Notes under the pieces: generated by a model
Told to the model about the DNA's origin: nothing
Database searches by the model: none
Seen by the model: only the letters and a program-made list of their open reading frames with translations
Part shown: positions 9,543-52,749 of the stretch, piece by piece
Numbering within the stretch: the stretch's first letter is position 1
Layout: every line of letters starts with the position of its first letter
Program-made: the position numbers and the translations under genes
Assembly (NCBI GenBank): GCA_014860575.1
Contig: JACZJK010000046.1
Coordinates: 1 to 64,000 of the forward strand
DNA: 64,000 nt
DNA from: Bacteroidales bacterium
Lineage (GTDB): Bacteria; Bacteroidota; Bacteroidia; Bacteroidales; JAAYJT01
Reading direction: 5' to 3'

Positions 9543-9561
9543 ATTCGTAAAAACCTGTCTG

Positions 9562-9592
9562 TAAAATTAATACCAGAAACAGGCAAATGCAA
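9562..9592 (-). promoter_or_regulatory. Promoter of the GLUG-repeat gene
   Basis: On the minus strand: TTG at 9590-9592, 20-bp spacer, TAATTTTA at 9562-9569. Spacing and -7 box match the other giant genes. The stretch between this promoter and the stop codon at 9971 shows only the hairpin at 9823-9867. Confidence 0.6.
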
Positions 9593-14284: not shown

Positions 14285-16069
14285 TCAAAGTTGCATAAGA
14301 AAAGGGACGAGGTTATCGTCAGAATGCAGGCCTAGTTTTTGGCGTAACCTATATCTCGTTGACTTGATACCCGCTTCTGATTTGAAAGAAATCGCAGCAA
14401 TTTCTTTACTGCTAAGATTCAATTTGAGAAAGGCTGCTGTTTTAATCTCCGACGGTGTGAGATCCGGGCAAACAGCAAGTAATTTCTGAAAAAACTCAGA
14501 GTGGATATTACGGAAAATCTTTTCAAATTCATTCCATGTGCTATTTTTAAGCTGGGCTTCTAAACCTGCAATAATGCTTTTGATTTGTATGGAAAGTTCG
14601 TTCTGATCTTTGTTTTTAAGATACTGTTGCTCAAGTTTTTCTATAACATCGCCCAGGGTTTCATTAATTCGCAGCATCTCCAGCGCTTTTGATGCCAATT
14701 CACGGTTTTTCGATTCCAGTTGTTCTTCCAGATATTGTTGTTCCCTTCTTTGTATTTCAGCTTTCTGCAGATTGTTTATTTTTTCCTGATCATTCAACAT
14801 CTCCTGCTTTTTCAGCGCTTTGGTTTTTAGCTTGAAAAGAAAGTATAAAAGTAAAAGAATGGCCATCACCGCTATTACTGAAATGGTCAGTAAAAGGTTT
14901 TGCTTTCGCTGGATAGCATTTCTGCTTTTCAAAATTTCTATTTCATCGTTTTTCCTGGCTGTTTGAAATTTCATTTCTGACTCCCTGAAAACTTTCTCAT
15001 TGTTTATAATTGATAAGCTATCCTTGATACCAGCACTCATCAATAGGTATTGATATGCATCTTCATATTTACCGGTTGAGGCTGATATTTGCGATAGAGT
15101 TTCATAACAATTATGAATCAGCAAAGGGTTCTTCATTTCCATAGCCAGGTCTAAGGCCATGCAAGCTTCAGATAGAGCTTCATTTTTCGAACCTGCTTTT
15201 TCGAGGGTTTGAGCCGTTTTAAGAATCGAGATACATACACCGGTTTGTTCATTGAGGGATGTATAATTTTTTTTTGCGGCATAAAGGCTGTGCAGTGCAT
15301 CATCCAGCAGTCCCATTTGCAAATATATATCGGCTATAGTATATTCTGAGCTCGCCATCCCGCGACTATCCTGTAATTGTGATCGTATAGAGAAGCTTTG
15401 TTTCAGGCAGAGCAGAGCGGAGTCGTAATCATGCATGCTGGCATAAGCGCTTCCCATACCTGAAAGAATAAGTGCTTTAGCTCCTTTGTCGTTCAATTCC
15501 TCAACAATTCCAAGGGCAGTCATCAAATAGGACAATGCCAAAACCGGCTCCGAACGCTCGATGTGAAGTGTTCCAAGACTAATCAGGGATGTTGATTGAA
15601 GTTTTTTGTTCCCTGTTTGTTTACTTAGCATGTGCATTTCCTGGAAATTCTCAATAGCTTTGTTATAATTTCCAAGCAATGAATACACACTACCAACTGC
15701 GAAACGATAATTGGCAAGCCCATCATCATCACCGATCTCCTCAAAAAGTTTTCGGGCCTGCTCAAGATACCTGAGGGCAATATCATATTCATCCTTATAG
15801 TAATATACCCTTCCCTGAAAAAGAAAACTACCTGCAATTCCCTTTTTATATTCCAACTCAGTTGAAAGAAGGTATGCTTCATGCAGATAAACAAGGGCTT
15901 TCTCCTGATCAATACTTCCAAAATATTCCCCAAGCTGAATCAAGAGAATAACTTTTGATGTGTCGGAAGGCAGTTGCTTTAACAAACGCTCCTTCTCCAA
16001 GGGATCAAACGGAGCTGCACCTAACGTTAATGATGTTAAAAATAATGACAACAGGAACAAGCGGATCAT
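14285..16069 (-). CDS. TPR sensor/regulator with one membrane segment and LuxR-type HTH
   Basis: 594 residues from the ATG at 16069, which starts a signal peptide or anchor (MIRLFLLSLFLTSLTLGAAP). Tetratricopeptide repeats fill about residues 35-350 (periplasmic). A single membrane helix (NLLLTISVIAVMAILLLLYF, about 391-412) is followed by a charged coiled coil (about 415-490) and a C-terminal LuxR/GerE-like helix-turn-helix (LTPSEIKTAAFLKLNLSSKE, about 538-585). This TPR-TM-coil-HTH layout is common in Bacteroidota, where such proteins may act as one-piece membrane regulators or partner with histidine kinases. It is the only transcription regulator in the window and a natural candidate to control nearby T9SS cargo genes, but that is inference from position. 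Confidence 0.85.
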   Translation of the reverse strand: MIRLFLLSLFLTSLTLGAAPFDPLEKERLLKQLPSDTSKVILLIQLGEYFGSIDQEKALVYLHEAYLLSTELEYKKGIAGSFLFQGRVYYYKDEYDIALRYLEQARKLFEEIGDDDGLANYRFAVGSVYSLLGNYNKAIENFQEMHMLSKQTGNKKLQSTSLISLGTLHIERSEPVLALSYLMTALGIVEELNDKGAKALILSGMGSAYASMHDYDSALLCLKQSFSIRSQLQDSRGMASSEYTIADIYLQMGLLDDALHSLYAAKKNYTSLNEQTGVCISILKTAQTLEKAGSKNEALSEACMALDLAMEMKNPLLIHNCYETLSQISASTGKYEDAYQYLLMSAGIKDSLSIINNEKVFRESEMKFQTARKNDEIEILKSRNAIQRKQNLLLTISVIAVMAILLLLYFLFKLKTKALKKQEMLNDQEKINNLQKAEIQRREQQYLEEQLESKNRELASKALEMLRINETLGDVIEKLEQQYLKNKDQNELSIQIKSIIAGLEAQLKNSTWNEFEKIFRNIHSEFFQKLLAVCPDLTPSEIKTAAFLKLNLSSKEIAAISFKSEAGIKSTRYRLRQKLGLHSDDNLVPFLMQL

Positions 16070-16122
16070 ACGGATATTATGATGTTCAAAAAACACAAAG
16101 TCATAGCAGAGCCACAAAACCC

Positions 16123-16211: not shown

Positions 16212-19200
16212 TCATTGCCTGATGACTTTCTCTATTCCAACATAACTTCCATTTGTAACCCTGATGAGATAAATACCCGGTTGGCTGTCGCCAAGATTAA
16301 AGATATAGCTTTTGGCTATCGGTTCTTCCACCGAAAAAACATTGTTTCCTATCAGGTCAAACACTTCAACTGAAATGCTTGTAAACTCAATTATATCATA
16401 GAGTTCCAAAGTAAATGTTCCCTTTGTCGGGTTGGGATATACTCCAAAACCAGGCTTATCTTTTATGATTTCATTTGCTGGCACTGCAAGTAATGCTTCG
16501 CTTGTAGCTAACATTGATGATCCACTGCCGCAATAGATGCCATTGGTTGTGATCCATGCATGCAAATAACCGCCGTTATGAATATGAGTGCCTTCAAGCA
16601 AACGTATGTTTTGCCCGGCTACAAGGTTCACATTCCCACCATTTTCAACAACAAAACTTTGCGAACCTCCCACCGTGATGGTTTGCAAGGCTTCAAAACA
16701 CAGGTCCTGTCCAGAACCAATTAAAACACCATCAAGGTCAACAGTTGGCGATATTTGACCTGTCCAGTGAATGCGTCCATAAGTGTCCTGCTCATTTGTT
16801 GGTCCGGCGAAAACTCCACTATAATCGGAGAGGGTAACTACACCTGCATCCACCGTTTTTGAAACATTATAATAACCCGTACTTCCCGGAAAAACAACAT
16901 TACTCAGCAACAGGCTTTGATTGTTGTTGATGGTTAACAGTCTTCCCCCACTTTGTCCGTTGCGGAAATTACAATTTGTAAACGACCTCGCCGGATCAAC
17001 AATGCCACCTGAATTAACATTTACTCCATTGGTATTCATGTATTCGAAAATGGTATGCTCTGCGCTAATGGTGGCTCCGCTATTGATATTAAAACCATAA
17101 TTTCCTGTGGAAATTCTGGATATGCGGGCTTCAGCGCCCAAACTTCCAATTGCATTTAGTGTTCCTCCGGTATTGATTGAAAGCGTTTTTGCGGAAGCCA
17201 GCAGAAGGTTGCTGTTATTGTTTAGAACAATTGTCCCGCCTGAATTTACATTCACATTACCGCCGGCTGAAACATCAACTCCGATCAAGTTTAAAGAGCC
17301 AATCTCAACTGTCAAATCATTATTTACTAATATGTCTGTGGTAACATTCACAGTGTTTGCTCTGGTTCCCTCGGTGATATTTCCATTTCTTTCTAACACT
17401 GGTTCTGATTTCAAACCATCTCCTCCGGATTTATTAATTAAAACATTGTGGAAATGTCCTGCACTTACTGCAATTCCGGCATCTGAACCTCCATAGAGTT
17501 CAACAGTTCCTCCTGAAGGTGTAAAATTCAGGTTGTTAACCGACATGTGCCCTGTGGTTCTTATAGTTCCAGCCGTAACATTTTCGGTAAAAGAATAGGT
17601 TGGTGAATTATAAACAAGAATGCCTACATCTTTAAAATCAAGAACACCACCGGTCATAAATACCGTGGCATTATCATAATAAGGCCAATAGCTGGTAGTA
17701 GCACCGCCAAAAACATTCAATTCTGCTCCACTTCCTATAATAACTGTACCATTGATATCTACGTACTGAGCACCATCCTGGTGGAGGTTCATCGTACCAG
17801 AATAAATGGCAAAGGTTCCAAACAGGCCGTTATCGGCCAGATCATAAGCAGTAAAGTTTCCGGGTGAAATCCAGATACCTCCACTTGTCCAATCGTAAAT
17901 CTGGCAGTTTATATTATGCTCAGCAAGGTTGTAAAGCAACTCCATTGGTTTATTAACTTCAAGGATATGGAAATCCTCTGTAGAACAGAACTGCGCTGTG
18001 GTTCCATTGAATATCACCCTGCTGTTGGTTTCATTAAAAGCTGAAGTACCAACGTTGTTGTACCAATTTTCGCCAATACTGATAGTCTTATTGTTAGAGT
18101 TCAGTACGCCGTCATCAATAAATAAGCTTCCCTTTATTGTAAGGTTATCGTAAACCTGGAATGAAGAACCAGGTTTATCGAGCACCATGTTATGAAGATA
18201 ATTTCCATTGGTTACCTGAACATAGTTGCCCGCACTTGTATTGACAAATTCAACAGTTCCGGCAAGGGGCTGGAACGTGCCGGCAGAATTTGCTGATAAT
18301 GTTTTTCCGACCCTGAAAACTCCCCCGCTAATCTGGTCATTGAAAGTGCTGGAGATCGAAACTGACCGGTTTGGAAATTCAACAATGCCTTCTATTAGCT
18401 GAAGAGTTCCGGCTAATGATACGCTACTTGTGCTATAATTATTAGTAAAAGTACCCTGGTTTAAATTAAGCAACCCTGTTGACGGAAAGGCAAATTCACC
18501 CTGAACGCTCGCTGAGCACCCGTTAGAAACTGACAGCGTACCGGAAAGATTCAAAGTTCCGCCAACCTGAAAATCGGCAGCGCTGAAAGAAATGCTGGCC
18601 CCATTTTCAATAGTAGCATTCCCCGCCACAATCATACCAGCACCGGACTGTAAGAAAAATAATGAGGCCCCGCTTTTTACTGTGTAATAACCCATCACTT
18701 TTGTCGGATAATAGGTTTTTCCGGTTACGTTCACACTCAAATTTTTTGACAAAGGCCCCCTCACCAAATTACCAAATTCGGCGTCGGTACTTGTAGGATA
18801 AATCATGTTGGAGGTTATGTAAGTAGTATTGCCGGTACCAAGTTTTGCAGTAGTTCCTTCTCTAAATGCCCAGTTTCCGGAATGAAATGTACCTGCAGTG
18901 ACATTCGCTGACGAACCATTTTCCCAATACATATTAACAGTGGTGAAATCATTTGCCGTATTGGTCATGATTAACTGTCCATAGATTGTTGTTGTTCCTT
19001 CTACATTACAGGTATAAGAACTCAAATTAAAACTGCCTGCATCAACATTTAAATCTCCTGTTATTACAAAATTGGAACCAAGGGTTATGGTGTTGGCTTT
19101 GCCACCATCAGTAAGCAAATGACCGCTGCGTTCGTCATACACCGGACCGTTGATATTGTTTTCCCCACTCTCTTTCGCGCTCTTATCGATTTTAACATTC

Positions 19201-22200
19201 GGTAATGTGCAACCATTGGCCTGGGAAATTAAATAATCACCAGAACCATAGAACTCAAATGTACCGGCAACGGGTGTAAAGTCTGCCCTTTCACCCAGGA
19301 ATCCACGCGACATTCGGATGGTTCCACCTGTAATATTATCATTTAACGTTAAGGCCCCGGTATTATTTATAAGGATGCCATTATCCTTAAAATCAAGTAC
19401 ACCACCCGACATAGTAATGGAGGCATTATATCCAAAAGGCCAATAGCTGTATCCATTACCTCCATACACATTGATAGTTCCTCCACCATTAAAGTTGAGA
19501 TGGCATCTTAGGTCAACATATTGCAAAGCATCCTGATAGAGGTTTATTGTCGCCCCTGGGTTCACCCAGTAGCCCCCGTCTAATCCGTTATCGGCCAGGT
19601 CAAGGGCGGTAAATGTACCGGTATCTACATCAATGGCACCTGCTGTCCAGTTATATTGATTACAGGTTACTGTGCCGGAAGACACCCTGAAGGCGCCACC
19701 CAGAGGCTTGTTCACTTCCAGATTATTAAATGTTTCGGTTGAACAATACTGATGATAGTTGCCCCCATTAAAAACAACCGTGCTGGTTCCTTCAACAAAG
19801 CCTGCCGTTCCGATATTATTAGTCCAGTTGCCCATGATTGAAAGGGTTGTGCTTCCTAGCCCCAGAGCTCCGCTTTCGATCAATAGATTGCCCCTGATTT
19901 CAATATCTTGGTTAAAAGTAGTTGTGCCGGATGAACTGATGGTTACGTTGTTAAAATAGTCTCCTGCAACGAAGGAGGAAGAGCCAGAGGATCCATCGAA
20001 TATAAATGTACCATTGCCAAGAGCGATACTTCCGCTCATATTGTTTACAAAACTGCCAATGATGAAACTCTGGCTTGAATAACTGGTAAGTGTACATCCT
20101 GAATAGATATAGAGGTTACCCGTTAACCGGCACGGAAATGTTGAAGCAGCACTATGACTAAGTGAAGTCCCGCTTTTATGGTTTCGCACATGATAAAAGT
20201 GGCTGTCAGAGTCTTTAGACCGGATGTAAGCAAGACTGGTACCGTAAAAATCTACATAACCTGCTGTTAGATAAACATTTGCACCATCCATAAAATCCCA
20301 GTCTCCATATACATAAATCGTGGCACTTCCGGTGGCTGAAGCCGAAGAGCCTAATTGCCACCTGATATCATCATAAACATAAAGTCTAGATGCTGTATTG
20401 TTCATTGTGAGCGTTCCATAGATATCAGCATCATAATCTATTTCAAGATTGTATGCACCTATTGTTAAGGTTGCTCCTGAATTTAAAGTCAAATTTTTAC
20501 ACGAGGCATTGGCACTCGATACATAAGGTTGTCTTACAGCGCCTGTAGGAATAATAACATCAAAAGTATTATCAGGTACCACATTCCCATCCCAGTTACC
20601 TGCTGTGTTCCAGTTTGTGCTAATATCTCCCTGCCACGTTAATTCATCAGTTTTTTGGTATGCCATAGTGTAAGACCCACCTGCTCCAGACCAGCCTCTC
20701 ACTTTTACGTAGGCATACCCTGAATAAGTAGCCATCCAGGTAACAATAGATCTGTGATCTTCGCAACCTTCATCGTTATACGCCACCTGATCGCAATTAT
20801 TATCATAAACATGCATGTAAGTATCGAAGTTCGCAGTTGCACCATCTCCACATCCGGTTTTAAAGGTATAAGTTCGCCCCTGTTCCACTGAAATGCGATA
20901 CATTTTACAACCACTTGCAGCAAAAGATGAAGCGTGGGTGGACCATGAATTTCCGGGACTAATCGCAAAATCATATCCGGGACATACAATACAATTGATG
21001 GTTGCTGTAGAGCGGTATGCTGCAATTACATGCTTGGTGTTACGAATAGCACGGGCATTATCACCATCGGTTGCATGTCCGGTAGCAACACCCATAAAGT
21101 TGACGGAAGGATTGGAGAAATGGCCAACCCTGGTTGAGTTCACAGGGTTTAACGGAAAATTTCCGGCAGCTGTATAACTCATTACCGATGAGTACCAAAC
21201 GCCATCAGTACCTTGCCATCTCCATCCGGCTGCATAATCATATAATCCAGGACCAGCCTGAAAGTTTTGATCTTTGTGATGCCCGCAGCCCATGTTATGA
21301 CCCATTTCATGAATTGGAGTATATGCAGTTGAAGTGCTAACACCGGCAATTGAAAATGCATCAGCAGGCTTTCCTGCAGTCGAATTCAACAACCAGCCAA
21401 TTCCACCACCCATGGTTGAGAACAACTGCACCAGGTCGGCTCCATAAGTATTGCGCCAGGTGTGAACAATGTCCATATGTCCATCGGCGGTAAGGGTAAG
21501 ACGGTTGAGATCCAACTCAACGTCCCCACTCTCAGTATAGGTTATTTCTGCCGTATGCACTAATCTGATAGTAAGAATGGTCGCACTATTGGCATGGGCT
21601 GTATTTCCGATTGCTACTGCCGTTGCAACGCAATTAAAGATGCCTCCGCCATTTGCATTGCCCCAGTTGCGGGCTGCCGGCGTGTAAACAATCATTACAT
21701 CAATGGTGGCAGGATCGCCAGGTCCTGATTTTGTATAGTCCATTTCCTTCTCTATTCTTTTTTGTTCTTCAATATCTTCAGACGTAAGCTCACCCGGAAT
21801 AAGTGAAGGATACTCAACAGTTGCAGTTATCAGGGATGAATTAATCTCAATCAGGTAGTGTTTGAGTGTAACCGGATCGCTTATGATCTGAAAATGACTG
21901 CCGGTTTCCGGGATAAAAACATTGATAAGCGATCGTCCTCCGTGTGTGCTAAGTATTGCATAAGCATAATTTGCCTCAATTATATCAGCAGTAATTACAA
22001 CGGTTCCCATTACATTTTCTTCAATGCTCCTTACCTTTGCTGTATAAGTAGTGTTCTCAAAAAGGTTTAATAAAATCTTGTCATCAACACTAAAAGCATT
22101 AGGCAAGGAAATTAAATTATTAAGTTTAACTTCTCTGTAACGCACAATAGCCTGTTTTTCCGCGAAGAAGTTTAGATCAGTTTCAATGACTGACCCTATA

Positions 22201-22316
22201 GAAGTTGAAGATTCAATTAGCTGAGGAAAAGATTCCTGTGCCATAGCAGATGTAAGCATCATAAAGAAAACAATGCTTGCACCAATTTTTGTCAATTGTA
22301 GAAGTTGAGATTTCAT
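16212..22316 (-). CDS. T9SS-secreted M12B (reprolysin-like) metalloprotease with long beta-helical region
   Basis: 2,034 residues. Signal peptide (to about AMAQ, 26), then a propeptide-like region (30-200). The metalloprotease domain begins near DPATIDVMIVYTPAA (201-215) and holds HEMGHNMGCGH at 336-346: ligands H336, H340, H346, catalytic E337, and Met-turn Met379 in SVMSYT. This is the metzincin signature of the M12B/reprolysin-like group. A PPC-like Cys-containing domain follows (about 445-550, CIVCPGYD to SYTMAYQ). Residues about 555-1890 are repetitive beta-strand sequence (NITGGTIRMS, GVLDFKDNGI, VVFNG) like beta-helical stalks. The two-Cys module and T9SS sorting domain end the protein. 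It is paralogous to the gene at 23098-28062 in the protease part and to 28453-35238 in the stalk, so it is a mosaic of its two neighbours. Probably an active extracellular protease. Confidence 0.9.
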   Translation of the reverse strand: MKSQLLQLTKIGASIVFFMMLTSAMAQESFPQLIESSTSIGSVIETDLNFFAEKQAIVRYREVKLNNLISLPNAFSVDDKILLNLFENTTYTAKVRSIEENVMGTVVITADIIEANYAYAILSTHGGRSLINVFIPETGSHFQIISDPVTLKHYLIEINSSLITATVEYPSLIPGELTSEDIEEQKRIEKEMDYTKSGPGDPATIDVMIVYTPAARNWGNANGGGIFNCVATAVAIGNTAHANSATILTIRLVHTAEITYTESGDVELDLNRLTLTADGHMDIVHTWRNTYGADLVQLFSTMGGGIGWLLNSTAGKPADAFSIAGVSTSTAYTPIHEMGHNMGCGHHKDQNFQAGPGLYDYAAGWRWQGTDGVWYSSVMSYTAAGNFPLNPVNSTRVGHFSNPSVNFMGVATGHATDGDNARAIRNTKHVIAAYRSTATINCIVCPGYDFAISPGNSWSTHASSFAASGCKMYRISVEQGRTYTFKTGCGDGATANFDTYMHVYDNNCDQVAYNDEGCEDHRSIVTWMATYSGYAYVKVRGWSGAGGSYTMAYQKTDELTWQGDISTNWNTAGNWDGNVVPDNTFDVIIPTGAVRQPYVSSANASCKNLTLNSGATLTIGAYNLEIDYDADIYGTLTMNNTASRLYVYDDIRWQLGSSASATGSATIYVYGDWDFMDGANVYLTAGYVDFYGTSLAYIRSKDSDSHFYHVRNHKSGTSLSHSAASTFPCRLTGNLYIYSGCTLTSYSSQSFIIGSFVNNMSGSIALGNGTFIFDGSSGSSSFVAGDYFNNVTISSSGTTTFNQDIEIRGNLLIESGALGLGSTTLSIMGNWTNNIGTAGFVEGTSTVVFNGGNYHQYCSTETFNNLEVNKPLGGAFRVSSGTVTCNQYNWTAGAIDVDTGTFTALDLADNGLDGGYWVNPGATINLYQDALQYVDLRCHLNFNGGGTINVYGGNGYSYWPFGYNASITMSGGVLDFKDNGILINNTGALTLNDNITGGTIRMSRGFLGERADFTPVAGTFEFYGSGDYLISQANGCTLPNVKIDKSAKESGENNINGPVYDERSGHLLTDGGKANTITLGSNFVITGDLNVDAGSFNLSSYTCNVEGTTTIYGQLIMTNTANDFTTVNMYWENGSSANVTAGTFHSGNWAFREGTTAKLGTGNTTYITSNMIYPTSTDAEFGNLVRGPLSKNLSVNVTGKTYYPTKVMGYYTVKSGASLFFLQSGAGMIVAGNATIENGASISFSAADFQVGGTLNLSGTLSVSNGCSASVQGEFAFPSTGLLNLNQGTFTNNYSTSSVSLAGTLQLIEGIVEFPNRSVSISSTFNDQISGGVFRVGKTLSANSAGTFQPLAGTVEFVNTSAGNYVQVTNGNYLHNMVLDKPGSSFQVYDNLTIKGSLFIDDGVLNSNNKTISIGENWYNNVGTSAFNETNSRVIFNGTTAQFCSTEDFHILEVNKPMELLYNLAEHNINCQIYDWTSGGIWISPGNFTAYDLADNGLFGTFAIYSGTMNLHQDGAQYVDINGTVIIGSGAELNVFGGATTSYWPYYDNATVFMTGGVLDFKDVGILVYNSPTYSFTENVTAGTIRTTGHMSVNNLNFTPSGGTVELYGGSDAGIAVSAGHFHNVLINKSGGDGLKSEPVLERNGNITEGTRANTVNVTTDILVNNDLTVEIGSLNLIGVDVSAGGNVNVNSGGTIVLNNNSNLLLASAKTLSINTGGTLNAIGSLGAEARISRISTGNYGFNINSGATISAEHTIFEYMNTNGVNVNSGGIVDPARSFTNCNFRNGQSGGRLLTINNNQSLLLSNVVFPGSTGYYNVSKTVDAGVVTLSDYSGVFAGPTNEQDTYGRIHWTGQISPTVDLDGVLIGSGQDLCFEALQTITVGGSQSFVVENGGNVNLVAGQNIRLLEGTHIHNGGYLHAWITTNGIYCGSGSSMLATSEALLAVPANEIIKDKPGFGVYPNPTKGTFTLELYDIIEFTSISVEVFDLIGNNVFSVEEPIAKSYIFNLGDSQPGIYLIRVTNGSYVGIEKVIRQ
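16500..17060 (-). repeat. Block nearly identical to 28745-29305
   Basis: The 3' stalk and pre-sorting module of this gene match the C39-like gene at DNA level with an offset of about 12,244 bp. The encoded segments NTNGVNVxSG, NCNFRNGQSGGRLLTINN and FAGPTNEQDTYGRIHWTG are nearly the same in both. Boundaries are approximate, judged by eye. Confidence 0.7.
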
Positions 22317-22490: not shown

Positions 22491-22571
22491 GGATAAGAGG
22501 AATGTATGCTCATTGAAAGGAAGTCTTGCCAGTTTGCATGCACTCGCGGTTACACGATGGGGCCGATAACC
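22491..22571 (-). promoter_or_regulatory. Element A, copy 2: structured 5' leader of the M12B gene
   Basis: 81 nt. As minus-strand RNA: P1 GGTTAT/GTAACC around CGGCCCCATC, then P2 GAGTGCATGC against GCATACATTC (one C-A mismatch, one G-U), loop with GGCAAGACTTCCTTTC, tail CTCTTATCC. It begins 16 nt after the -7 box and ends 174 nt before the ATG at 22316. The intervening leader has no other clear structure. Confidence 0.7.
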
Positions 22572-22587
22572 ATTATATTACAAGCAA

Positions 22588-22619
22588 TAAAATTAGTGCT
22601 TTTCTGAGGCCTTACGCAA
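22588..22619 (-). promoter_or_regulatory. Promoter of the M12B gene at 16212-22316
   Basis: On the minus strand: TTG at 22617-22619, 21-bp spacer, TAATTTTA at 22588-22595. From 22620 to 22848 I see nothing recognisable. Confidence 0.6.
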
Positions 22620-23041: not shown

Positions 23042-23077
23042 AAACCATATCTGCAGCAGATGCCGCAGATATGGTTT
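23042..23077 (-). terminator. Terminator of the BACON/M12B gene
   Basis: AAACCATATCTGC (23042-23054) pairs with GCAGATATGGTTT (23065-23077), 13 bp perfect with a 10-nt loop, followed on the minus strand by TTTT-rich sequence. It lies 20 bp after the stop codon at 23098. A textbook intrinsic terminator. Confidence 0.85.
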
Positions 23078-23097: not shown

Positions 23098-26000
23098 CTA
23101 TTGCCTGATCACCCTCTGAATTCCCATTTCATCACCGCTAATTACCCTGACGATATAAACACCCCTGGGTTGACCTGAAAGATCAAATTCGTAGAGATAA
23201 TGCCCCGAAACTGATTGCTTCAGAATTTGTTCGCCCATAAGGCTGTATATCTCAACCAAAATTGCAGAGGTGGTTTGAACCAATTCAAGGTTGAATAAAC
23301 CGGTTGTTGGATTGGGGTACACTTTAAAGAAATTATCCGGAGGCGTAATTTCCTCAGGCTGTTCTATAGGCATGATGATTTCATCCTTAACCGCTAACAT
23401 GGCGGGTGGGGAAATAATGCCGCAATGGTCAACATCAGAAATCCAGGCATGCAGGTATGAACCACTGCGGGCATGTGTTCCTTCAAGCAACCTGATATTG
23501 TGCCCGGCTACCATGTTCACCATGCCACCGCTGAGAATAGTGTAATACTGAACCGTAATGGTTTGAGAGGCATTGTAACATTGGTAAACTCCGGGTGCTA
23601 CGGTAAATGGAGGGACAGTAACATTGACCGGAATAACAACCCCTGCCTGGTGTACTGTTACTGTTACATCTGAAGCCTCAAATGCTGTTAGGGTAATTTG
23701 TCCTGATCTGGAAGCAAGCGCAGTGTTCTCAGTATAATTTACAGTAATTGTTCCGTTCATGGTGCCGCTCATGGGCGCAACAGTCAGCCAGGGTACACTT
23801 TCAGTGACAGTCCAGTCAGTGTTCGATGTAACATCGAAAGTGGTAGTTCCTGCTGCTGTTGACACATTCCTTTCCGGTGGCAACACAGTAAGGTATGGAG
23901 GAGCACCAACCTGATTTACAACTACAATAACATTTGGAGTATATGGCGCTGAAATTGTAATCTCGCCAGTTCTGGGAGTTGTTATTGCGTTCGCGTCGTA
24001 ATTAACTGTCAATGTGCCATTACCATTTCCAAATACCGGAACAACACTTAACCAGGGTATACTTTCTGTTACTGTCCAGTTGGTAGTATTTGAAAGCAGA
24101 TCAAAAGTTGTTGTGCCATTATTATATCCCACTTCTTGCTGATCAGGTGCAACGGTCAGGAATGGTAGTTCAAGGTTGCCTTTTTTATATCCCAGACGGC
24201 TGCAGGAGTTTTGAGCCTGACAATTAAATTTGTGTAAATATACCCTGACATCGCCTGTAAAGTCAGCAGTCCAGTCAATAAATGCGCCAAAATCACCCGG
24301 GCCGCAGTTATTGTGTGCATAATCAATAAACGAATTATCCGATGCCTTTCTTAATGTAAGCTGAGATTCAAAAGGGGCATTTGCTCCATGCGTTGCACAT
24401 AATGACCAGTTGTATTTTTCGCCAATATTAACCGAAAAAGTAGTATATTCTCCGCCGAAGAGGCAAGTTATGTATTGCCAGTTTTCTGTTGGAACCACTG
24501 TTAGCCATGGATTTCCAGTGGCACAGTAATCATATTGAGATAATGAAGCAGTAACAGTCGGCCCGTAACTGGCTACTCCTGTGAAAGTAGCGATACGGCC
24601 ACTGCCGGTATTCGGATCATAGTTCACAGTAATGGTAGCATCGCCAGTGCCTGAGGTTTGGCTCACAACAGCCCAGGGTTGATCACTTGAAAGCGTCCAG
24701 AAAGTGTTAGAGGTTATATTATAAGTTGTTGAGCCGCCCAAAGGACCTACTACCTGGACGACAGGTAAGATAGATATTGAAGGATTGGCAAGTGCTCCGC
24801 TTTTGTAGGCCAAACGCGTTGAACTGGCGTAACTGTCGCATGGCTCTTTCGTAACAATAACCTTAACTTCACCTGTAAAGTTAGCAGTCCAGCTTATTTT
24901 GCCATCATCGCCACAAAAATAACTGTTATAGGTGATATACGCATTGGTTGCTGCATTACGTAATGTCAGCCGTGAATCATAAGATGCATCACCTCCGTGT
25001 GCAGGACACAACGACCAGTGGTATTGGGTGCCGGATACAACGGAAAACCTGGCAAATTCTCCAGCCCACATTCCTCCATGATATTTCCATGTATTTACAG
25101 GCTCCAGCAAACCGCCCCACTGATTCACACTATTACATTGAGCGTCATTAGGCATTTGTGTTAAAGTTGACTGGGTTGAAAATGCACCACTACTGGCGGT
25201 AATGGTTCCTATACGCTGAGCACCAGTATTTGCTGTGTAAACAACTGTAATGGTTGCATTGCCTGTTCCGCTTGAGGGAGTAAGCGATGTTATCCAGGAA
25301 ACATTTTTTGTCAATGTCCAACTCGTATTGGAGTTCACGTAAAAGTAAGTTGTTCCCGCTCCTGATAATACATCCCGGTTTTCGGGAGTTAGCGCAACAG
25401 CGATATTAACGAGTGCCCCACTCTTGTAGGCGATTTTTGTACTTGTAACCTGGCTTTCACAGGGGTATCTGGTTAAAACCAGCTTGACCAGTCCTGTAAA
25501 TGTGGCCGTCCAACTTATCCTTGCATCATCTCCGCATACATCATTCGAGTGTGCGAGGTAAGCATTATTATCAGCGCGGCGCAAGGTTAACTCCGAATCA
25601 TAGGAAGCACTTCCTCCATGTTCCGGACACAGCGACCAGTGATATTGAGTGCCACTGGTAACGTTGAAAGTAACAAATTCGCCTGCCCAAATGCCTGTGT
25701 GATATTGCCAGTCGTTTAATGGGGTAAGCGGGCCTCCAAATTGCGACAAGCTGTTACAATAAGCATCACCGGGAAGTTGTGTTACCGTGGCCGTGACATT
25801 GGTCATTCCATAGGCTGAAGCAGTGATGGTACCTACTCTTTGTGCTCCTGAATTTGCATTGTAATTAACAGTAATAGTGGCATTTCCGCTTCCTGATGTC
25901 TGGCTGAGCGAGCTTATCCAGGTTACATTTTTGCTTAGGCTCCAGGTCGTATTCGATGTTATACTAAATGTTGTTGAACCGGAGGAGGAGAATACGTCCC

Positions 26001-28062
26001 TATTGGCAGGAGAAATGGTAACATAAGGGTTCGCCAGCGTACCGGTTTTGTAGGCAAGCCTGGTTGCCGTACTTTCACCCAGGCAGTTAAATTTGTTTAC
26101 CACAACTTTTACCTGGCCGGTAAATGTTGCTGGCCAACTAATAAAAGCATCCATTCCGCTGCCGCACTCATCATCAGAATAAGTGATAATACTGTTATCA
26201 GAGGCATTGCGCAGCGTTAGTTGTGAATCATACGGGGCATCGCCGCCGTGGTGACTACATAAAGACCAGTGATACGTTGTTCCGCTGGTAACATTAAACC
26301 TGCTGTATTCACCGGGAAAAATACTACTTTGATATTTCCAGAAATTCTCAGCGGTAAGGGTAGTAGAAGGATATTGAGTATTGCTGTTGCAACCCAGCGG
26401 GCGCTGATAAGCAAGGGTGTACGATCCTGAAGTTGAACCAAATCCCTTGACTACCAGGTAGGCATAACCATCATAAGTAGCTACCCACTCTATTTTTGAT
26501 CGGAAGCTTTCACATTCATCATCATTAAAGGCTACCTGGCTGCAGTTGCTGTTAAGCAACTGAAGTTGAGTGTCGAAGTTAGCTGTTGCTCCGTTACCGC
26601 AACCTGTCTGAAATATATAGGTTCTTCCGGCAATAGCTGTAAATCTATACACCTTACAACCATTGCTTACAATTGAAGATGAAGTGGTTTGCCATGAACT
26701 GGATGGTGAGAAGGTAGAATTATACCCGGGACATGCGATGCAATTGATAGTGGCTGTGGAACGATACGCAGCGATTACATGTTTGGTGTTTTGTATTGTC
26801 CAAGCATTATCACCATCGTTATAGTGGCCTGTGGCAACTCCCATGTAAGTAACAGTGGGATTTGAAAAGTAGCCGACTCTTGTAGAATTGTATGGATTAG
26901 ATGGGAAATATCCTGCAGCCGTATAACTCATCACTGACGAATAGAGCACTCCATCTGTTCCTGTCCAGCGCCAGCCTGCAGAAAAACTCCACAAGCCGGG
27001 GCCTGGTTGAAAGTTCTGCTGCTTATGATGCCCGCATCCCATATTATGGCCCATTTCGTGAATTGGAGTATAAGCAGTGGCAGTGCTTACACCGGCAAGG
27101 GAGAAAGCATATGTTGGACTTCCGGCAGCATTGTTCAATAACCAGGCGATACCACCACCCATGGTTGTGAAGAGTTGTACCATGTCAGCACCGTAAGTAT
27201 TACGCAAGGTATGTATTCCGTCTATATAGCCATCACTGGTGCCGGTAAGGCGGTCCAAATCGAGGCCAACATCACCACTTTCTGTGTAGGTTACCTGTGC
27301 ATTGTAAACCAGCCTGATGCTTGCAATTGTAGCACTGTTTGAAAGAGCGGTATTTCCGATAGCAACAGCAGTAGCTACCAGGTTTCTAATACCACCTCCA
27401 TTATTGTTTCCCCATGTTGCAGCAGCAGGTGTATAAAGGATCATTACATCAATGGTAGCCGGGTCACCAGGTCCTGATCTGGTGTTTTCGATTTCCTCCT
27501 TTATTCTGTTTTGTTCTTCCAACTCTTCTTCTGTTGGGTCACCAGGAATTTTTGCCGGGTGATGCTCAACGTCAGGGATAAGTTCAGGATTGATTTCAAC
27601 CAGGTAATGCTTCAGTGTAACCGGATCGCTGGTAATTTCATATTTCTTCCCTTCTTCTGGAACGTAAACATTCACAAGTGTTCTGCCCTCGGTTGTTGAA
27701 ATGATCATGAATGCGTAATCAAATGAAAGTAGTTTGGCGGTTATGGTCACATTATCCTCCATAATTTCTTCCACCCGTTGCACCTCAGCAATGTATTCAA
27801 CATCGCTGAAAAGGTTCAGATTGATAAGATCTTCGGATTCAACTGTGAACAGTGACTTAAGATTTCCGTTTAGTTCAACTTCCCTGAACCGGGTAACTGC
27901 ATCTTTGTTTTCAAAGAAATGCAGGGCAGTATTAATATCCTGCTGTACATTGGTTTCATATTCAATGAGCTGAAGCTCCTTGAATTGTGCATTTGCCGGG
28001 TTTGTCACAAACAGCCCTGTCAGGCTGATGACCAACCCAATAAGTAAAATTCTTGGTTTCAT
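23098..28062 (-). CDS. T9SS-secreted M12B-like metalloprotease with BACON modules
   Basis: 1,654 residues from the ATG at 28062, chosen over 28119 because it has an AGGAGG four bases upstream and opens a clean signal peptide (MKPRILLIGLVISLTGLFVT). Propeptide-like region, then the metalloprotease: HEMGHNMGCGH with H335, H339, H345 as ligands and E336 catalytic, Met-turn SVMSYT. A PPC-like domain (about 469-550) is followed by an alternation of Cys-containing modules (YHWSLCPxHGG, SxLTLRxA) and BACON-like domains (SNTxWTLxxxxxW, GNATITVNY). I count five BACON-like domains (about 681-765, 884-974, 1091-1172, 1297-1384, 1391-1477) and four Cys modules. BACON domains are thought to bind carbohydrate or mucin. 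The two-Cys pre-sorting module and sorting domain (GIQRVIRQ) end it. The protease half is paralogous to the gene at 16212-22316. Confidence 0.9.
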   Translation of the reverse strand: MKPRILLIGLVISLTGLFVTNPANAQFKELQLIEYETNVQQDINTALHFFENKDAVTRFREVELNGNLKSLFTVESEDLINLNLFSDVEYIAEVQRVEEIMEDNVTITAKLLSFDYAFMIISTTEGRTLVNVYVPEEGKKYEITSDPVTLKHYLVEINPELIPDVEHHPAKIPGDPTEEELEEQNRIKEEIENTRSGPGDPATIDVMILYTPAAATWGNNNGGGIRNLVATAVAIGNTALSNSATIASIRLVYNAQVTYTESGDVGLDLDRLTGTSDGYIDGIHTLRNTYGADMVQLFTTMGGGIAWLLNNAAGSPTYAFSLAGVSTATAYTPIHEMGHNMGCGHHKQQNFQPGPGLWSFSAGWRWTGTDGVLYSSVMSYTAAGYFPSNPYNSTRVGYFSNPTVTYMGVATGHYNDGDNAWTIQNTKHVIAAYRSTATINCIACPGYNSTFSPSSSWQTTSSSIVSNGCKVYRFTAIAGRTYIFQTGCGNGATANFDTQLQLLNSNCSQVAFNDDECESFRSKIEWVATYDGYAYLVVKGFGSTSGSYTLAYQRPLGCNSNTQYPSTTLTAENFWKYQSSIFPGEYSRFNVTSGTTYHWSLCSHHGGDAPYDSQLTLRNASDNSIITYSDDECGSGMDAFISWPATFTGQVKVVVNKFNCLGESTATRLAYKTGTLANPYVTISPANRDVFSSSGSTTFSITSNTTWSLSKNVTWISSLSQTSGSGNATITVNYNANSGAQRVGTITASAYGMTNVTATVTQLPGDAYCNSLSQFGGPLTPLNDWQYHTGIWAGEFVTFNVTSGTQYHWSLCPEHGGSASYDSELTLRRADNNAYLAHSNDVCGDDARISWTATFTGLVKLVLTRYPCESQVTSTKIAYKSGALVNIAVALTPENRDVLSGAGTTYFYVNSNTSWTLTKNVSWITSLTPSSGTGNATITVVYTANTGAQRIGTITASSGAFSTQSTLTQMPNDAQCNSVNQWGGLLEPVNTWKYHGGMWAGEFARFSVVSGTQYHWSLCPAHGGDASYDSRLTLRNAATNAYITYNSYFCGDDGKISWTANFTGEVKVIVTKEPCDSYASSTRLAYKSGALANPSISILPVVQVVGPLGGSTTYNITSNTFWTLSSDQPWAVVSQTSGTGDATITVNYDPNTGSGRIATFTGVASYGPTVTASLSQYDYCATGNPWLTVVPTENWQYITCLFGGEYTTFSVNIGEKYNWSLCATHGANAPFESQLTLRKASDNSFIDYAHNNCGPGDFGAFIDWTADFTGDVRVYLHKFNCQAQNSCSRLGYKKGNLELPFLTVAPDQQEVGYNNGTTTFDLLSNTTNWTVTESIPWLSVVPVFGNGNGTLTVNYDANAITTPRTGEITISAPYTPNVIVVVNQVGAPPYLTVLPPERNVSTAAGTTTFDVTSNTDWTVTESVPWLTVAPMSGTMNGTITVNYTENTALASRSGQITLTAFEASDVTVTVHQAGVVIPVNVTVPPFTVAPGVYQCYNASQTITVQYYTILSGGMVNMVAGHNIRLLEGTHARSGSYLHAWISDVDHCGIISPPAMLAVKDEIIMPIEQPEEITPPDNFFKVYPNPTTGLFNLELVQTTSAILVEIYSLMGEQILKQSVSGHYLYEFDLSGQPRGVYIVRVISGDEMGIQRVIRQ

Positions 28063-28247: not shown

Positions 28248-28328
28248 GGATAAAAGGAATGTATGCTCATCGAAAGGAAGTTTTGCCAAATTGCATACAT
28301 TCACGGTTATACGATGGGGCCAATAACC
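28248..28328 (-). promoter_or_regulatory. Element A, copy 3: structured 5' leader of the BACON/M12B gene
   Basis: 81 nt and the best-paired copy. P1 GGTTAT/ATAACC (6 bp) around TGGCCCCATCGT; P2 GAATGTATGC against GCATACATTC, 10 bp with no mismatch; loop of 26 nt with GGCAAAACTTCCTTTC; tail CTTTTATCC. It starts 19 nt after the -7 box and ends 185 nt before the ATG. Just upstream, TTCTTTGAAAGAA forms another small inverted repeat at the likely 5' end of the RNA. Confidence 0.72.
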
Positions 28329-28347
28329 ATTCTTTCAAAGAATGATG

Positions 28348-28378
28348 CAAAATTAGTGAATTGTGAGGCTGAATACAA
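28348..28378 (-). promoter_or_regulatory. Promoter of the BACON/M12B gene
   Basis: On the minus strand: TTG at 28376-28378, 20-bp spacer, TAATTTTG at 28348-28355, a perfect TAnnTTTG. Expected start of transcription is near 28342. Confidence 0.7.
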
Positions 28379-28441: not shown

Positions 28442-28461
28442 AGGCGATAAACTCATCGCCT
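28442..28461 (-). terminator. Weak hairpin overlapping the stop codon of the C39-like gene
   Basis: AGGCGAT (28442-28448) pairs with ATCGCCT (28455-28461); the TGA at 28453-28455 reaches into the stem. Only 7 bp and followed by TTGTTATC, so it is a poor terminator. No better one is seen before the next promoter. Confidence 0.3.
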
Positions 28462-31400
28462 GATAACCTTATCAACGCCAACTTCTTTCCCTCTCATTAC
28501 CCTGATGAGATAGATACCTGGCTGCTGGTTAGTCAGGTCGAACTTGTATTGTTTGAATTCAGGCAATTCAAAAGAAAGAATTTTTTCACCAACAACGTTG
28601 CAAATATCAACGTTTATTGATGAAAATTCCATGAGATCATCCATTTCCAAAGTAAATATTCCCCTGGTAGGATTTGGATAGATTCTAAAGCCAGATTGCC
28701 CGTTTGGTTTCTCAACGTCAGAACCCGTGAGGCTGTTTTCTTCAACAGCAGCAAGCATTGATGAACCGCTGCCGCAATAGATTCCATCTGTTGTTATCCA
28801 GGCGTGCAGATAAGCGCCGCTTTGAACATGAGTGCCTTCAAGCAAACGGATGTTTTGCCCCGCTACAAGGTTCACATTTCCACCACTTTCAAGTATAAAA
28901 CTTTGCGAACCCCCAAGCGTGATGGTTTGCAAAGCCTCAAAACAAAGATCCTGACCTGACCCAATCAAAACACCATCAAGGGTTATAGTTGACGAGATTT
29001 CGCCTGTCCAGTGAATGCGGCCATAAGTGTCCTGCTCATTTGTTGGTCCGGCGAAAACACCGCTATAATCGGAGAGGACAACAACACCTGCATCCACTGT
29101 CTTTGAGACGTTATAATTACCAGAGCTGCCCGGAAAAACAACATTGCTCAGTAACAGGCTTTGACTGTTGTTTATGGTTAACAGCCTTCCACCGCTTTGT
29201 CCGTTGCGAAAATTACAATTGGTAAACGACTTCGCCGGATCAACAATAGCACCGGATTTAACATTCACCCCATTGGTGTTCATGTACTCAAAAATAGCAT
29301 ATTCAGCGCCAATGGTGGCTCCACTTTCAATATTCAAACCATAGTTACCGGAAATCCTCGTGATTTTCGGATAATCAGTTACAGTGCCTTGCAATGAAAG
29401 CTCGCCCCCATTGTTTACTGTTAAGGCTTTTCCGCTGCCCATAGCCATTGAGCCAACTCCTTCCATAGAGAGATTCCCACCTGAGTTTACAGTTACATTT
29501 CCGGCAATGGTAGCTTCATGCACAATCCTCAGGTTTCCCTCATCAATAACGGTATTGTTATTCACTTTCAGGTTGCCGATAGTAATAGCATAGTTGTCCG
29601 ATCTGTCTAACGGTATTTCTACTTTGAGCCTTCCGGGTTCAGACATCCTCATTTGCACGACATCATTCTGTGTGTAATCAGCACCGAGTAATAAACCAAC
29701 TTGCTTATCTATTTTCAGGTTATAAAAATGCGAACCACCAGTACTTTGAATCCCGGCTGGATTATTGCCATAAAGCTCAGCCGTTCCACCGCTTGGAATA
29801 AAGGTAGGATGAGTTACCAGGAACACTCCTCTAGTCTTTATTGTACCACCACTCACTGAGGCTGATATGGGTTTGCTGGCATTAATAGAAATGCCAGGGT
29901 TATTAAAATTCAGAATACCATCTGACATTGTAAAACTTGCAGGCGCAGCCCACCCCCACTCGCTATAACCATAGTTCCCATTCACAGTCATGGTTCCTCC
30001 GTGAATATTGAGAGAGCCATTCAAGTCAGTATATTGCAAATCAGACTGGTTTAGTATAATGCTGCCATTATAGAGGTCAATGGTTCCAAAAATACCATTA
30101 TTGGTAATATCATTGCAACTGAAGCTGCCATTTGAAAGCCCCAAATTACCTCCCATGGTGAAATTGTTAACAATTACTGTCGGAGCAGCAGTTGTTAATA
30201 CAATTATACCGGCTGAGAGATCCAGAAGGCCATTAACATTCAGATTAGCAGAAACCATATTGGAAACATTGGCCAGGAAATTATTAATTACTGTTACTGG
30301 TCCTTCAATCATCAATTGACCGTTACCGGTTTTAGCGTTCGTCAGGTTGTAGAACGTTTCACCATAAATCCTCTGGTGGTTAAAATCACCGCTGCCATTA
30401 AAATACACTGTTCCGGTATGCTCCAGAAAGCTTGCTGGCCCAGGTACGTTGGTCCAGTTTCCACCTACATACATGTTTTTAATATTTGTATTGAAAACAC
30501 CGGAATTTAGAGTAAAGTAGCCTTTAAGCGTGAGGTCGTTAGCAATATATACGTCTGCAGACGGCTTAGTAATTAAAAGATGATTCAGGTAATTTCCGTT
30601 GGTTACATTCAAATAGTGCCCGGCATTTGACGACATCATCTCCAGGTTTCCCCAGTTAAGCTGGAAGTTGTTGGTAATGCTTGCAGTTAGCGATCTGCCA
30701 AAACGCAAATCACCGCCTCCTATATTATCGTCATTGAATGTTGTACCAATAATTACATTTCGTCCCGTCATCTCAAACACGGATCCGGCATTCATATCAA
30801 TGCGTCCATTCAGTGTTATACTTCCTGACGCTGAATTCTGATCGCAGATAAAGCTTGACGCATCCAAATACAAGTATCCAGTTGAGGGGAATGTCAGCGA
30901 GCCATGAAGAGTTGCTACGCTGCCTCCGCTAAGCGATAAATTACCTGCAAAGTTCAACGATCCGTTGGTAGAAAAGTCGGCTCCGTTTGAGAAGTAGATG
31001 GAATTTCCGCCAGGAATATTTGAATTACCTGAAACAATCAAATCGGTTGCACCTTCAGCAAAAGTCCAGGTGGTGCCTTGCATATCAAAATTGCCCGCTA
31101 CCCTTACCGGATAATAAGCTTTGCCACTTTCACCTCCTTCCAATACTTTTGAAGCAGGAACTGCTATCAGGTTACCAAACTCCGCATCATTATCGGTAGG
31201 ATAGTAAAGATTGTAGATGTAAGCGGTATTTCCCAAACCAAGCTTTGCATTGGTTCCCTCATTGAAACGCCAGTTATTTGTATTAAAAGTCCCGGCAGTT
31301 ACATTATCATTTGAACCTGATTGCCAGTTAATGGTTCCGGCAGTCAGGTCATTTGCGGCATTGGTCATGGTAAGTGTTCCATAAATATCAGTTGTACCGG

Positions 31401-34400
31401 AAACATTGCAGGTGTATGCACTCAGGTCAAATGTTCCTGCGGCAATGTTGAGATTACCGGTAATTGTAAAGTTTGAACTTAAAGCAATGGTATTGGCTTT
31501 GCCTCCATCGGAGAGTTGCATTCCGGATCTTTCGTCGAAAACAGGCCCGGTAATCTCAGGATCACCTTCCTTGGCAGCCCCTTTATTGATTTTTACGTTG
31601 GGGAGAGTACTTCCTGCTACCTGGCTAATATTGTAGTCACCTGTACCATAAAACTCAAATAGACCAGCCGAAGGTGAAAAATCAGCCCTGTTGGAATTAA
31701 AACCACGGCTGGTACTGATGATGCCACCGGTAATATTTTCGGTTAATGTATAGATGCCTGAATTATAAATATAGATTCCCTGGTCCTTAAAATCCAGCAC
31801 CCCACCACTCATATTAATTGATGCATTTGCTGCAAAAGGCCAATAGCTGTAGGTCGTTCCTCCAAAAACATTAAAATTTCCTTCAAAAATATTCAGATTA
31901 CCGTTAAGATCAACATAGCCATCAGTGTTTGTTAAATTGATTGTTCCTCCGGGATTGAGCCAGTAACCCCCATAAATCCCATTATCAGCAAGGTCAAGTG
32001 CGGTAAAAGTTCCTGCAACTACATCAATACCTCCAGTGGTCCAGTCATACTGGTTGCAGGTAACAGTATAGGCAGCATTAATAATTCTTAGTGCCGCTCC
32101 CATATTGGCTTCCAGGATGTTGAAAGTTTCATTGGAATAAACATATTGGTGGCCTGAACCATTGAATATCACCCTGCTTGTTCCTTCCACGAATCCGGTA
32201 GTTCCTACAGTATTGGTCCAGTTGCCTCCAACATGCATGGTTCTGTCTTGCAGGTTGAATATCCCGGATTCAATCACCAGGTTTCCATTTACATCCAGAA
32301 TATTGCTTAAACTGTTACTAATTGTTACAGTGCCGGCTTGACTAAAGGTGAGATAGTTAAAGTAATCGCCTGTATTCATTTTTAGACTTTGGTTCGAGCC
32401 ATCCAATACCACCGTGCCATAATTACATAAAAATGTTCCATTACTATTTACATCACCTTTAAGGATGACATCATTAGTGGAGTAAATCCCGAAAATTGCG
32501 CCGGGATGGACATAAATGTAGCCATTAATAGTAAGCGGCTGAGTTGAATAGTAACTTACTCCGATATGATAACCACCGGTTTTGTAACTTCCTACATGGT
32601 TGAAGGAGCTTGTGGAGGAATAGCTGCTAATATATTTATTAGCGTCACCCATAAACAACACCGTACCATTGGCAAGGTTCGCATTTGAACCTGATTCAAA
32701 ATTCCAATGTCCATAAACCCTGAAAGGTGCCGTTGTAGTAAAGTTGGCAGTTGAACCGGAGTTCCAGACAACATCGCCCTGAACGTTGATTTCCCCGGAG
32801 GCATTGTTAGATGCAAGTGTTCCGTTAACCGTAAGGTTGCCGGCAACATTCAGTGCATATCCACCAACAGTCAGAGTTGCTCCTGTATTGATTGTGATGT
32901 TTTTACAATTGGCAATGGCAGTATAAATATATGGCTGGAATGGAGTACCAGAGGGAATGGTTACATCAATGCCAGCATCAGGAATAATGTGGCCACTCCA
33001 GTTATTCGCATTATTCCAGTTAGTGCTTACAAGGCCTGTCCATGTGCCCGGCGACTCAATCCTTAAAGTGTAGTTAGCTGTATTGGCGTCGTTGGACCAA
33101 AGGCATAATCCATACCAATCGGTTGAGATAACTGTATATGTGAAATATTCATCGCCACCGGCACCTCCACTGCTGGACATAGCTTTGTTAGAACCCCTGG
33201 GGGCATAATAGGCAGCACCATCTGAACCAAACAGGGCAAAGTCAAGATTAGCTGTTCCTGAAGTAACGTCCAATATGAAACCGTATGTACCGGGGTTGAG
33301 GTTAATATCATAGATTTCAACCACATCGTTTGCAGGCCAGGATGTATTCAACGCAACACCTGCTGATATAACATCGGAGCCACCTTCATATTCAACACGT
33401 GCCGTGCTTGTTCCTGAATATCTTCGTGCTTTGATTCCACGATCAGTAGATGGAGTATGATTGCCGTCAATGACGACAAAATCAACGGTGGTTCCACCGT
33501 ATGAAGAAGACGCGATTACATCATTGAAAGCGGTCCCGCTATGCAGCTCGATATCCCAATCATCAGAACCATTGGTTGCCCTTAAACCTACTACACTCCA
33601 ATAGAGTGAAGTGTTTGCAAACTGGTAATAATCGGGCACTGTGGTAGTCACTGTGGAGGCATCTTCGGAAAGGCTTGGTAAACTACCTCCTGAATGAAAA
33701 TCGAAATTTCCATAGCTTCCATCTGCTGCCTGCACTGCTGATGTTCCTCCATCCCGAACTTCAACCTTTACCCGGCCCAGAGAAGAATTGGCCAGCCCTG
33801 AAGGAATGCTCCAGTCGAATAATCCATCATTTGGAGTATTGCTTGAAATAACTGTCCAGTTATATCCGCCGTTGGTTGAATAAAGCAATCGCGCGTAGGA
33901 GCCTGAATAGTAGTCATAATTCCAGGTAATTTCAAACCTGTCGCCGGCATACAAATGCTCACCCTGGCTTGGCGGAACTACATTATCCGTATAACGCGGA
34001 TCTCCGAAAGGGCTTGTGATGTTGACAGCAGCGCCATATTGCCCACCCGGCACAATAGTACCTACCAGGTCGCAGCTTGTATAATAAACGCTGCTGTGTG
34101 ATGGTTGCCATGTATCATGCCTGATAAGGTAATTGTCGCTGGTATAACCAACACCGGTATTGGAATGCCCAGGGGTTCCCATGTGGTATGGCCGACCGGC
34201 ATCAATCTCAGTTTGAGCCCAGTCCAGGTATTGAGCTGAAGTTCCATACTTATCCGTTCCTGTGAAACTATAACCACGTGCATCGGTTTCGTTAACAAAA
34301 CCACTTAGCCAACAACAGGAACCCGTGCTTCCAGTCATTGAATCAGTACTCATAGCAATGGCCAATGCCTTCTGAAGATCAGGAACATTTTTATCAGTAT

Positions 34401-35480: not shown

Positions 35481-35561
35481 GGATAAGAGGAATGCATGCT
35501 CAACGAAAGGAAGTCTTTCCAGAATGCATGCACTCGCGGTTACACGATGGGGCCGATAACC
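35481..35561 (-). promoter_or_regulatory. Element A, copy 4: structured 5' leader of the C39-like gene
   Basis: 81 nt. P1 GGTTAT/GTAACC around CGGCCCCATC; P2 GAGTGCATGC against GCATGCATTC (all 10 paired, one G-U); loop with GGAAAGACTTCCTTTC, itself able to pair GGAA/TTCC; tail CTCTTATCC. It begins 18 nt after the -7 box and ends 242 nt before the ATG at 35238. The rest of the leader shows no clear motif. Confidence 0.72.
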
Positions 35562-35579
35562 ATACTTTCAAAGAAGGCA

Positions 35580-52691: not shown

Positions 52692-52705
52692 AACCAGCAG
52701 TTTTT

Positions 52706-52722: not shown

Positions 52723-52749
52723 GGTTAATAATTAATTTTAATGAACATG

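Follow-up and report, generated by a model that had tools for sequence, protein, structure and literature searches.

A conserved candidate RNA leader common to four clustered T9SS cargo genes in a Bacteroidales genome

The cargo gene array and element A

Four giant genes for T9SS cargo proteins (g1 to g4) are each preceded by a copy of a common leader sequence, element A, in the window (the whole 64-kb stretch of DNA analysed here). The four copies measure 78–84 nt, are named below by their lowest coordinate, and were found where the original prediction had placed them. That prediction gave no strand; element A and its genes are on the minus strand, in one 26-kb same-strand array (Table 1). 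A Por_Secre_tail domain terminates all four proteins. The start of g3 was placed at the signal peptide (28062) rather than at the start given by the ORF tool (28119), and the leader distance for g3 was measured to the former.

Extensive homology links three of the four genes. Residues 1–555 are common to g2 and g3 at 62% identity, and residues 560–2034 of g2 (about 1,500 residues) align to g4 at 49%; these alignments suggest a mosaic g2, with one part resembling g3 and another resembling g4. In contrast, homology between g1 and the others was detected only over ~170–205 C-terminal residues, which makes the GLUG gene the sole case of a common leader without a common body. The earlier statement that the coding regions are not all homologous thus applies to the GLUG gene, but not to g2/g3 and g2/g4, which share large segments. 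Mosaic paralogy among three of the four genes means that duplication can account for element A in front of those three. This weakens the earlier argument that gene duplication does not suffice, although the GLUG gene does keep element A.

The cargo genes are likely to be transcribed separately. A strong terminator-like hairpin with a T run follows g3, upstream of the g2 promoter, and a weaker one closes g4, ahead of the g3 promoter, in a scan that returned 13 sites where 13.3 are expected from shuffled sequence. A gene between g1 and g2 encodes a TPR-like protein whose matches to the FimS and BT3442 family models are weak and far under the cut-offs; it is a possible regulator of the neighbouring cargo.

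The promoter pattern TTG-N20/21-TAATTTTR stands ahead of all four copies, with TTG 20–21 nt upstream of the -7 box. The box is of the TAnnTTTG type, the known Bacteroidota sigma-ABfr pattern. A TAnnTTTG -7 box is also described in the available text of PMC9723704. From the end of the TAATTTTA/G box to alignment column 1 there are 13–16 nt, and to the GGTTAT of P1 16–19 nt, in all four copies, the latter spacing being the one originally reported. Element A ends 107, 174, 185 or 242 nt ahead of the start codon over the four genes (174 nt for g2), so a direct block of translation initiation is unlikely.

Table 1 Features of the array and of other leaders in the window (position 1 is the first letter of the window).
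Feature	Position	Strand	Description
g1	4561..9360	-	1599-aa T9SS cargo, GLUG motif
Element A copy 1	9468..9545	-	78 nt, the divergent copy; different P2 loop, 5' arm and tail retained, 3' arm retained in part
14-codon ORF, copy 1	9500..9544	-	MVIGLIETVSACSI*
g1 promoter	9562..9592	-	TTG, 20 nt, TAATTTTA
TPR-like protein gene	14285..16117	-	
g2	16212..22316	-	2034-aa T9SS cargo, M12B metallopeptidase domain
Element A copy 2	22491..22574	-	84 nt; C-A mismatch in P2
Copy 2, tail	22499-22491	-	
Copy 2, P2	22545-22500	-	
Copy 2, P1	22571-22548	-	
Short ORF over P1, copy 2	22550..22573	-	MVIGPIV*, 7 codons
g2 promoter	22588..22619	-	TTG, 21 nt, TAATTTTA
Terminator-like hairpin and T run	23042..23077	-	after g3, upstream of g2 promoter; strong
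g3	23098..28062	-	1654-aa T9SS cargo, M12B and BACON domains
Element A copy 3	28248..28331	-	84 nt, perfect 10-bp P2
Short ORF over P1, copy 3	28307..28330	-	MVIGPIV*, 7 codons
g3 promoter	28348..28378	-	TTG, 20 nt, TAATTTTG
Weaker terminator-like hairpin	28442..28461	-	end of g4, upstream of g3 promoter
g4	28453..35238	-	2261-aa T9SS cargo, C39-like peptidase
Element A copy 4	35481..35564	-	84 nt
Short ORF over P1, copy 4	35540..35563	-	MVIGPIV*, 7 codons
g4 promoter	35580..35610	-	TTG, 20 nt, TAATTTTA
g6/g7	45963..59041	-	large cargo genes
Element B, first copy	52708..52847	-	promoter-leader pair
Element B, second copy	59057..59196	-	promoter-leader pair

For the 17-base core of element A, allowing up to three mismatches, the expected number of matches in the window is 0.16; four were found, a count that none of 100 shuffles reached. 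In a search with filters off, element A was absent from four further large cargo genes in the window, g0, g5, g6 and g7. Por_Secre_tail matches number at least 150 in the genome as a whole (of 224 candidates, 150 were scored and all of these matched); with four copies, element A would thus serve a small, one-cluster subset of these genes.

Predicted fold and sequence conservation

Element A was originally described as folding in all copies into two hairpins, P1 and P2, followed by a tail. Local folding indeed predicts both hairpins in every copy, with single-copy MFE z-scores of -0.5, -1.3, -2.5 and -3.2. In whole-leader ensembles, which use an assumed transcript start, the description holds less well: the probability of P2 is ~1 in copies 28248 and 35481 and ~0.73 (inner pairs) in copy 9468, but 0 in copy 22491, and that of P1 is 0.91 in 28248 and ~0.7 in 22491, but 0 in 9468 and 35481. 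For the four-copy alignment, the consensus fold of the sense strand gives z -5.0, with none of 500 column shuffles as good, versus z -2.0 and 13 of 500 for the antisense strand. P2 alone yields z -6.8 (0/500), whereas P1 alone is marginal (z -1.9, 24/500). Restricting the alignment to the close trio gives z -3.1 (3/500), and the pair 9468 and 35481 gives z -1.3 (59/500). These values, in which column shuffling measures the folding of the conserved consensus and not covariation, support a predicted sense-strand fold that is conserved and arises mostly from P2.

P2 had also been called covarying. The pair states quoted for it are correct (A-U, G-U and G-C at one pair; U-A, C-G and C-G at another, with C-A in 22491), but the covariation score was reached by 206 of 500 shuffles of the four sequences, a comparison of low power, and a two-sided change occurs at one pair only; covariation thus does not rise above background and was rejected as proof of the structure. 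Paired cells amount to 93.8%, compared with 92.6% after shuffling, and registers slid along the alignment pair less well (18–57% of cells). The C-A mismatch in 22491 is real, but it is joined by three mismatches in copy 9468 that the original account omitted, at P2 pairs 31-74 (A-C) and 36-69 (A-A) and at P1 pair 8-23 (A-A). Apparent covariation among four close paralogues can evidently be equalled by shuffling, and should be read with caution.

An inverted repeat alone would yield part of the fold signal, and the P2 arms do constitute an inverted repeat of 10 bp around TGCATGCA, whose position relative to the promoter is fixed to within 3 nt. A transcription regulator might bind this repeat as DNA, just downstream of the promoter, and serve as a roadblock or an activator; the RNA fold would then be incidental. 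We regard such an operator as unlikely: the fold signal is smaller on the antisense than on the sense strand, which a contribution of G-U pairs would predict, the inverted repeat includes neither P1 nor the conserved tail, and the P2 loop of copy 9468 is 4 nt shorter.

Sequence conservation is concentrated in element A itself. The three close copies have pairwise identities of 0.85, 0.88 and 0.92; compared with copy 9468, they score 0.65, 0.69 and 0.71 (shuffled means 0.46–0.47 for both sets). By comparison, the initial 60 nt 3' of the element are 0.46–0.57 identical (shuffled 0.44–0.49), the 60 nt upstream of the start codon 0.43–0.57 (shuffled means 0.47–0.51), the initial 120 coding nt 0.46–0.56 (shuffled 0.47) and the far upstream segment 0.40–0.53. 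A few flank values, for the pairs 22491/28248 and 9468/35481, slightly exceed the 95% shuffle limits, so the flanks are somewhat related. Element A also outdoes the coding DNA that these genes have in common, at 0.88 versus 69.6% over 1069 columns for g2/g3, and at 0.92 versus 81% over 745 columns and 65% over 1084 columns for g2/g4. Within the element, the close copies keep 9–11 of 11 positions of the P2 5' arm of copy 9468, 8–9 of 13 in the 3' arm and 8–9 of 9 in the tail (CTYTTATCC), but only 6–7 of 22 in the P2 loop. On sequence grounds, element A is best described as a conserved island, and its proposed role as a selected leader module common to four T9SS cargo genes is supported: conservation far exceeds that of the flanks, the distance to the promoter is nearly fixed, and the fold signal is on the sense strand.

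Alternatively, promoter and leader may simply have been duplicated along with the genes, or homogenised by gene conversion, leaving element A without any role of its own past initial transcription. The cargo genes form a same-strand array with large segmental homology, and the promoter segment is itself more alike than shuffled sequence (0.53–0.73). Copy affinities are also mixed, 28248 being nearest to 35481 in the promoter segment and to 22491 just past element A. We nonetheless consider this account improbable, slightly more so than the operator, since element A stands out as an island from a downstream flank that is close to random, outdoes common coding DNA, and is kept ahead of the otherwise unrelated GLUG gene.

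Overlapping P1 in three of the four copies is a short ORF, absent from the original prediction, that would encode MVIGPIV* (ATG GTT ATY GGC CCC ATC GTR TAA) and contains four Val/Ile codons. Translation of this ORF near the mRNA 5' end could let ribosome progress remodel P1 and P2, thereby controlling the secreted peptidase genes. ATG and stop are present in the three copies, both differences among them are third-base and synonymous, and attenuation clues are given for amino-acid operons of Flavobacterium psychrophilum in the available text of PMC9723704. However, 8 of the 24 possible transitions are synonymous, and if all have the same likelihood, chance alone would give two such changes in roughly one case out of nine, so MVIGPIV* is a lead only. 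In addition, a 2-nt deletion shifts the frame in copy 9468 to a 14-codon ORF, MVIGLIETVSACSI*, and no gene-strand terminator-like hairpin was found in the g2, g3 and g4 leaders, the three that the scan covered. Control by a leader peptide is thus quite improbable.

Least probable is the recruitment of a NusG paralogue (of the UpxY/LoaP/RfaH type) to aid RNA polymerase through these 5–7-kb genes: long transcription units with a 5' hairpin resemble LoaP-dependent leaders (PMC12691694, available text) and the genome has a second NusG, but both NusG matches of the genome are on other contigs, none is linked to the array, the paralogue sits beside an apparent nucleotide-sugar dehydrogenase gene as fits a polysaccharide regulator, and g0, g5, g6 and g7 do without element A. 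This paralogue (L072, 1291-1782, minus strand) is likely a UpxY-like polysaccharide regulator.

Distribution of element A and other shared leaders

No Rfam 15 family, among riboswitches, Flavo-1, Bacteroid-trp and others, matched either strand of the 64 kb at gathering thresholds, and none matched within 22400–22650, the region of copy 22491, at E<=1. This bears out the earlier impression that element A is not a known riboswitch. A literature search of titles and abstract openings found no description of it.

Covariance model R1, the structure part of which was drawn from the same four sequences, recovered the four copies in their own genome at E 3e-17 or better (150 of 1558 first-look candidates scored). 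One further match there, at E 6, was counted as chance. The wider search of Bacteroidota genomes that had been suggested gave no credible copy elsewhere in the sampled sets, which overlap. Ten weak matches (E 0.02–0.71) were obtained at E<=1 in 9 of 59 other relatives; none of 392 other genomes of the order set matched at E<=0.01, one of 394 in the class set did at E<=0.02 (E 0.015), and none of 394 in the phylum set did at E<=0.005. For the three larger sets (order, class and phylum), scoring was limited to 11 candidates per genome under stricter filters, and more diverged copies could have escaped detection. We take the 11 weak matches (ten from relatives, one from the class set) as chance because all sit within open frames of more than 100 codons (ORFs were listed for L012 and L061); besides L012, five of the ten relative matches were also realigned to the model.

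A search with the P1 pattern gave 13 genome-contig matches, none titled Bacteroidota in a collection that may omit records near the window's genome, and 26 viral-contig matches. On rescoring, 15 reached E<=1, the best 0.0025 in 331 kb, and these are taken as chance because the pattern itself selected them. Two extra near-matches in the own genome were also rejected as coding, one being antisense in a long frame of a cargo gene and the other falling in an apparent ABC-ATPase motif (VIGPNGGGKTT). In a sister species (G001), one gene encodes a relative 63% identical to the N-terminus of g2. Element A was not found in this gene or the ~550 nt upstream of it (filters off, best 7.1 bits); the gene begins 73 nt past the stop of another cargo-like gene.

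The best reading of these searches is that element A is lineage-restricted, with four credible copies in one genome. Its distribution is not that of a riboswitch, across species and within one metabolite pathway, as the copies precede secreted-protein genes of a single genome, and the data give no grounds for a ligand-sensing role. Nor are the copies dispersed and independent of promoters, as REP- or MITE-like repeats would be. The original suggestion that the module may be mobile is not supported, given its confinement to one 26-kb array at a near-fixed distance from the promoter, in a genome with so many other Por_Secre_tail matches.

The window also contains a second shared leader. Element B is 86% identical between its two copies, which precede a papain-family (C1) and a subtilase (S8) cargo gene. 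No other match reached E<=1 in the own genome; among 20 other genomes, the strongest was a 29-base match (E 0.002). We read element B as containing an 8-bp hairpin in which copy differences keep pairing via G-U. As a relative of element A it was rejected, as the two have no meaningful similarity (best E 0.14). The neighbouring genes g6 and g7 have 411 C-terminal residues in common at 88% and differ in their catalytic domains; leader and tail are common, and the enzyme is swapped.

Upstream regions were also compared among 114 stretches from 118 ORFs of at least 250 aa and any function, taken from 18 other stretches and the window. No additional copy of element A emerged. Besides the A and B pairs, nine pairs involve a stretch outside the window, three of which were inspected. 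In L085 (C33, own genome), a 35-bp segment upstream of 5436-11867 and 12028-15630 is 94% identical and abuts the start codons of these two large neighbouring genes; it is possibly a third shared leader piece in the genome. The segments common to L083/L096 (93 bp at 78%) and L083/L099 (45 bp at 91%) lie upstream of large genes on different contigs and are probably dispersed repeats. A general rule that clusters share leaders was rejected; by eye, two of the three inspected pairs look like dispersed repeats.

A putative recognition site in cargo mRNAs

To our knowledge, the co-regulation of T9SS cargo genes is poorly understood. Our preferred reading, which we hold tentatively, is that the array has grown by duplication and segment exchange and that its selected ~80-nt leader, with the P2 hairpin, is a cis-regulatory element recognised in the mRNA by a trans-acting factor. 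The array, made up of giant cargo genes in tandem that are probably transcribed as separate units, would expand in this way while four of its genes retain a common housekeeping-type promoter and a selected 5'-proximal element. On the transcript, this element would most likely form the P2 hairpin, with a weaker P1 upstream and the conserved tail remaining single-stranded. An sRNA or RNA-binding protein would probably recognise it, jointly setting the stability or translation of these messages.

A site acting in mRNA is favoured because the 5' arm and tail keep both sequence and pairing while the loop varies, and because the sense strand folds better. The retention of primary sequence in arm and tail suggests that the site is recognised, not just stable. 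A direct block of initiation and classical attenuation are both disfavoured, since the start codon is distant and no leader terminator was seen where scanned. Action of an sRNA or RNA-binding protein on stability or translation would then be the simplest remaining RNA mechanism; the genome has one match to an RRM RNA-binding protein.

If so, an island leader amid changing flanks and catalytic domains offers a compact handle on RNA-level control of secreted enzymes. A broader proposal, which we consider doubtful but worth stating, is that element A is the first-seen member of a lineage-specific class of leader RNAs, through which a T9SS-rich bacterium would group its secreted paralogous enzymes into small regulons controlled at the RNA level. 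The class would also include element B, a leader unrelated to A, and leader and catalytic domain would be shuffled as separate modules.

Known systems offer partial parallels. The LoaP-dfn hairpin (PMC12691694) and the UpxY leader region (PMC7819879) mark long transcription units, as element A does, but no NusG gene lies near the array and no terminator was found in the g2, g3 and g4 leaders. The structured 5' transcribed regions of F. psychrophilum (PMC9723704) come from the same phylum and have TAnnTTTG-type promoters like that of element A. Some precede peptidase genes and some are without Rfam matches, as with element A; going by their description in the available text, they are catalogued individually, whereas element A is common to four genes of one array.

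The phylum also has sRNA control of protease mRNAs. The Rfp18 sRNA (PMC9723704) tunes several secreted metalloproteases post-transcriptionally, a role like that proposed for element A, although the available text describes no common duplicated leader among its targets. In Bacteroides thetaiotaomicron, FopS/GibS and RbpB (PMC11697453) target sites reported, in the available text, in 5' or translation initiation regions, whereas element A ends 107–242 nt upstream of its start codons. That system nevertheless illustrates how one RNA regulator can act on the mRNA 5' regions of several surface-protein genes, and an RRM protein is encoded in the present genome as well.
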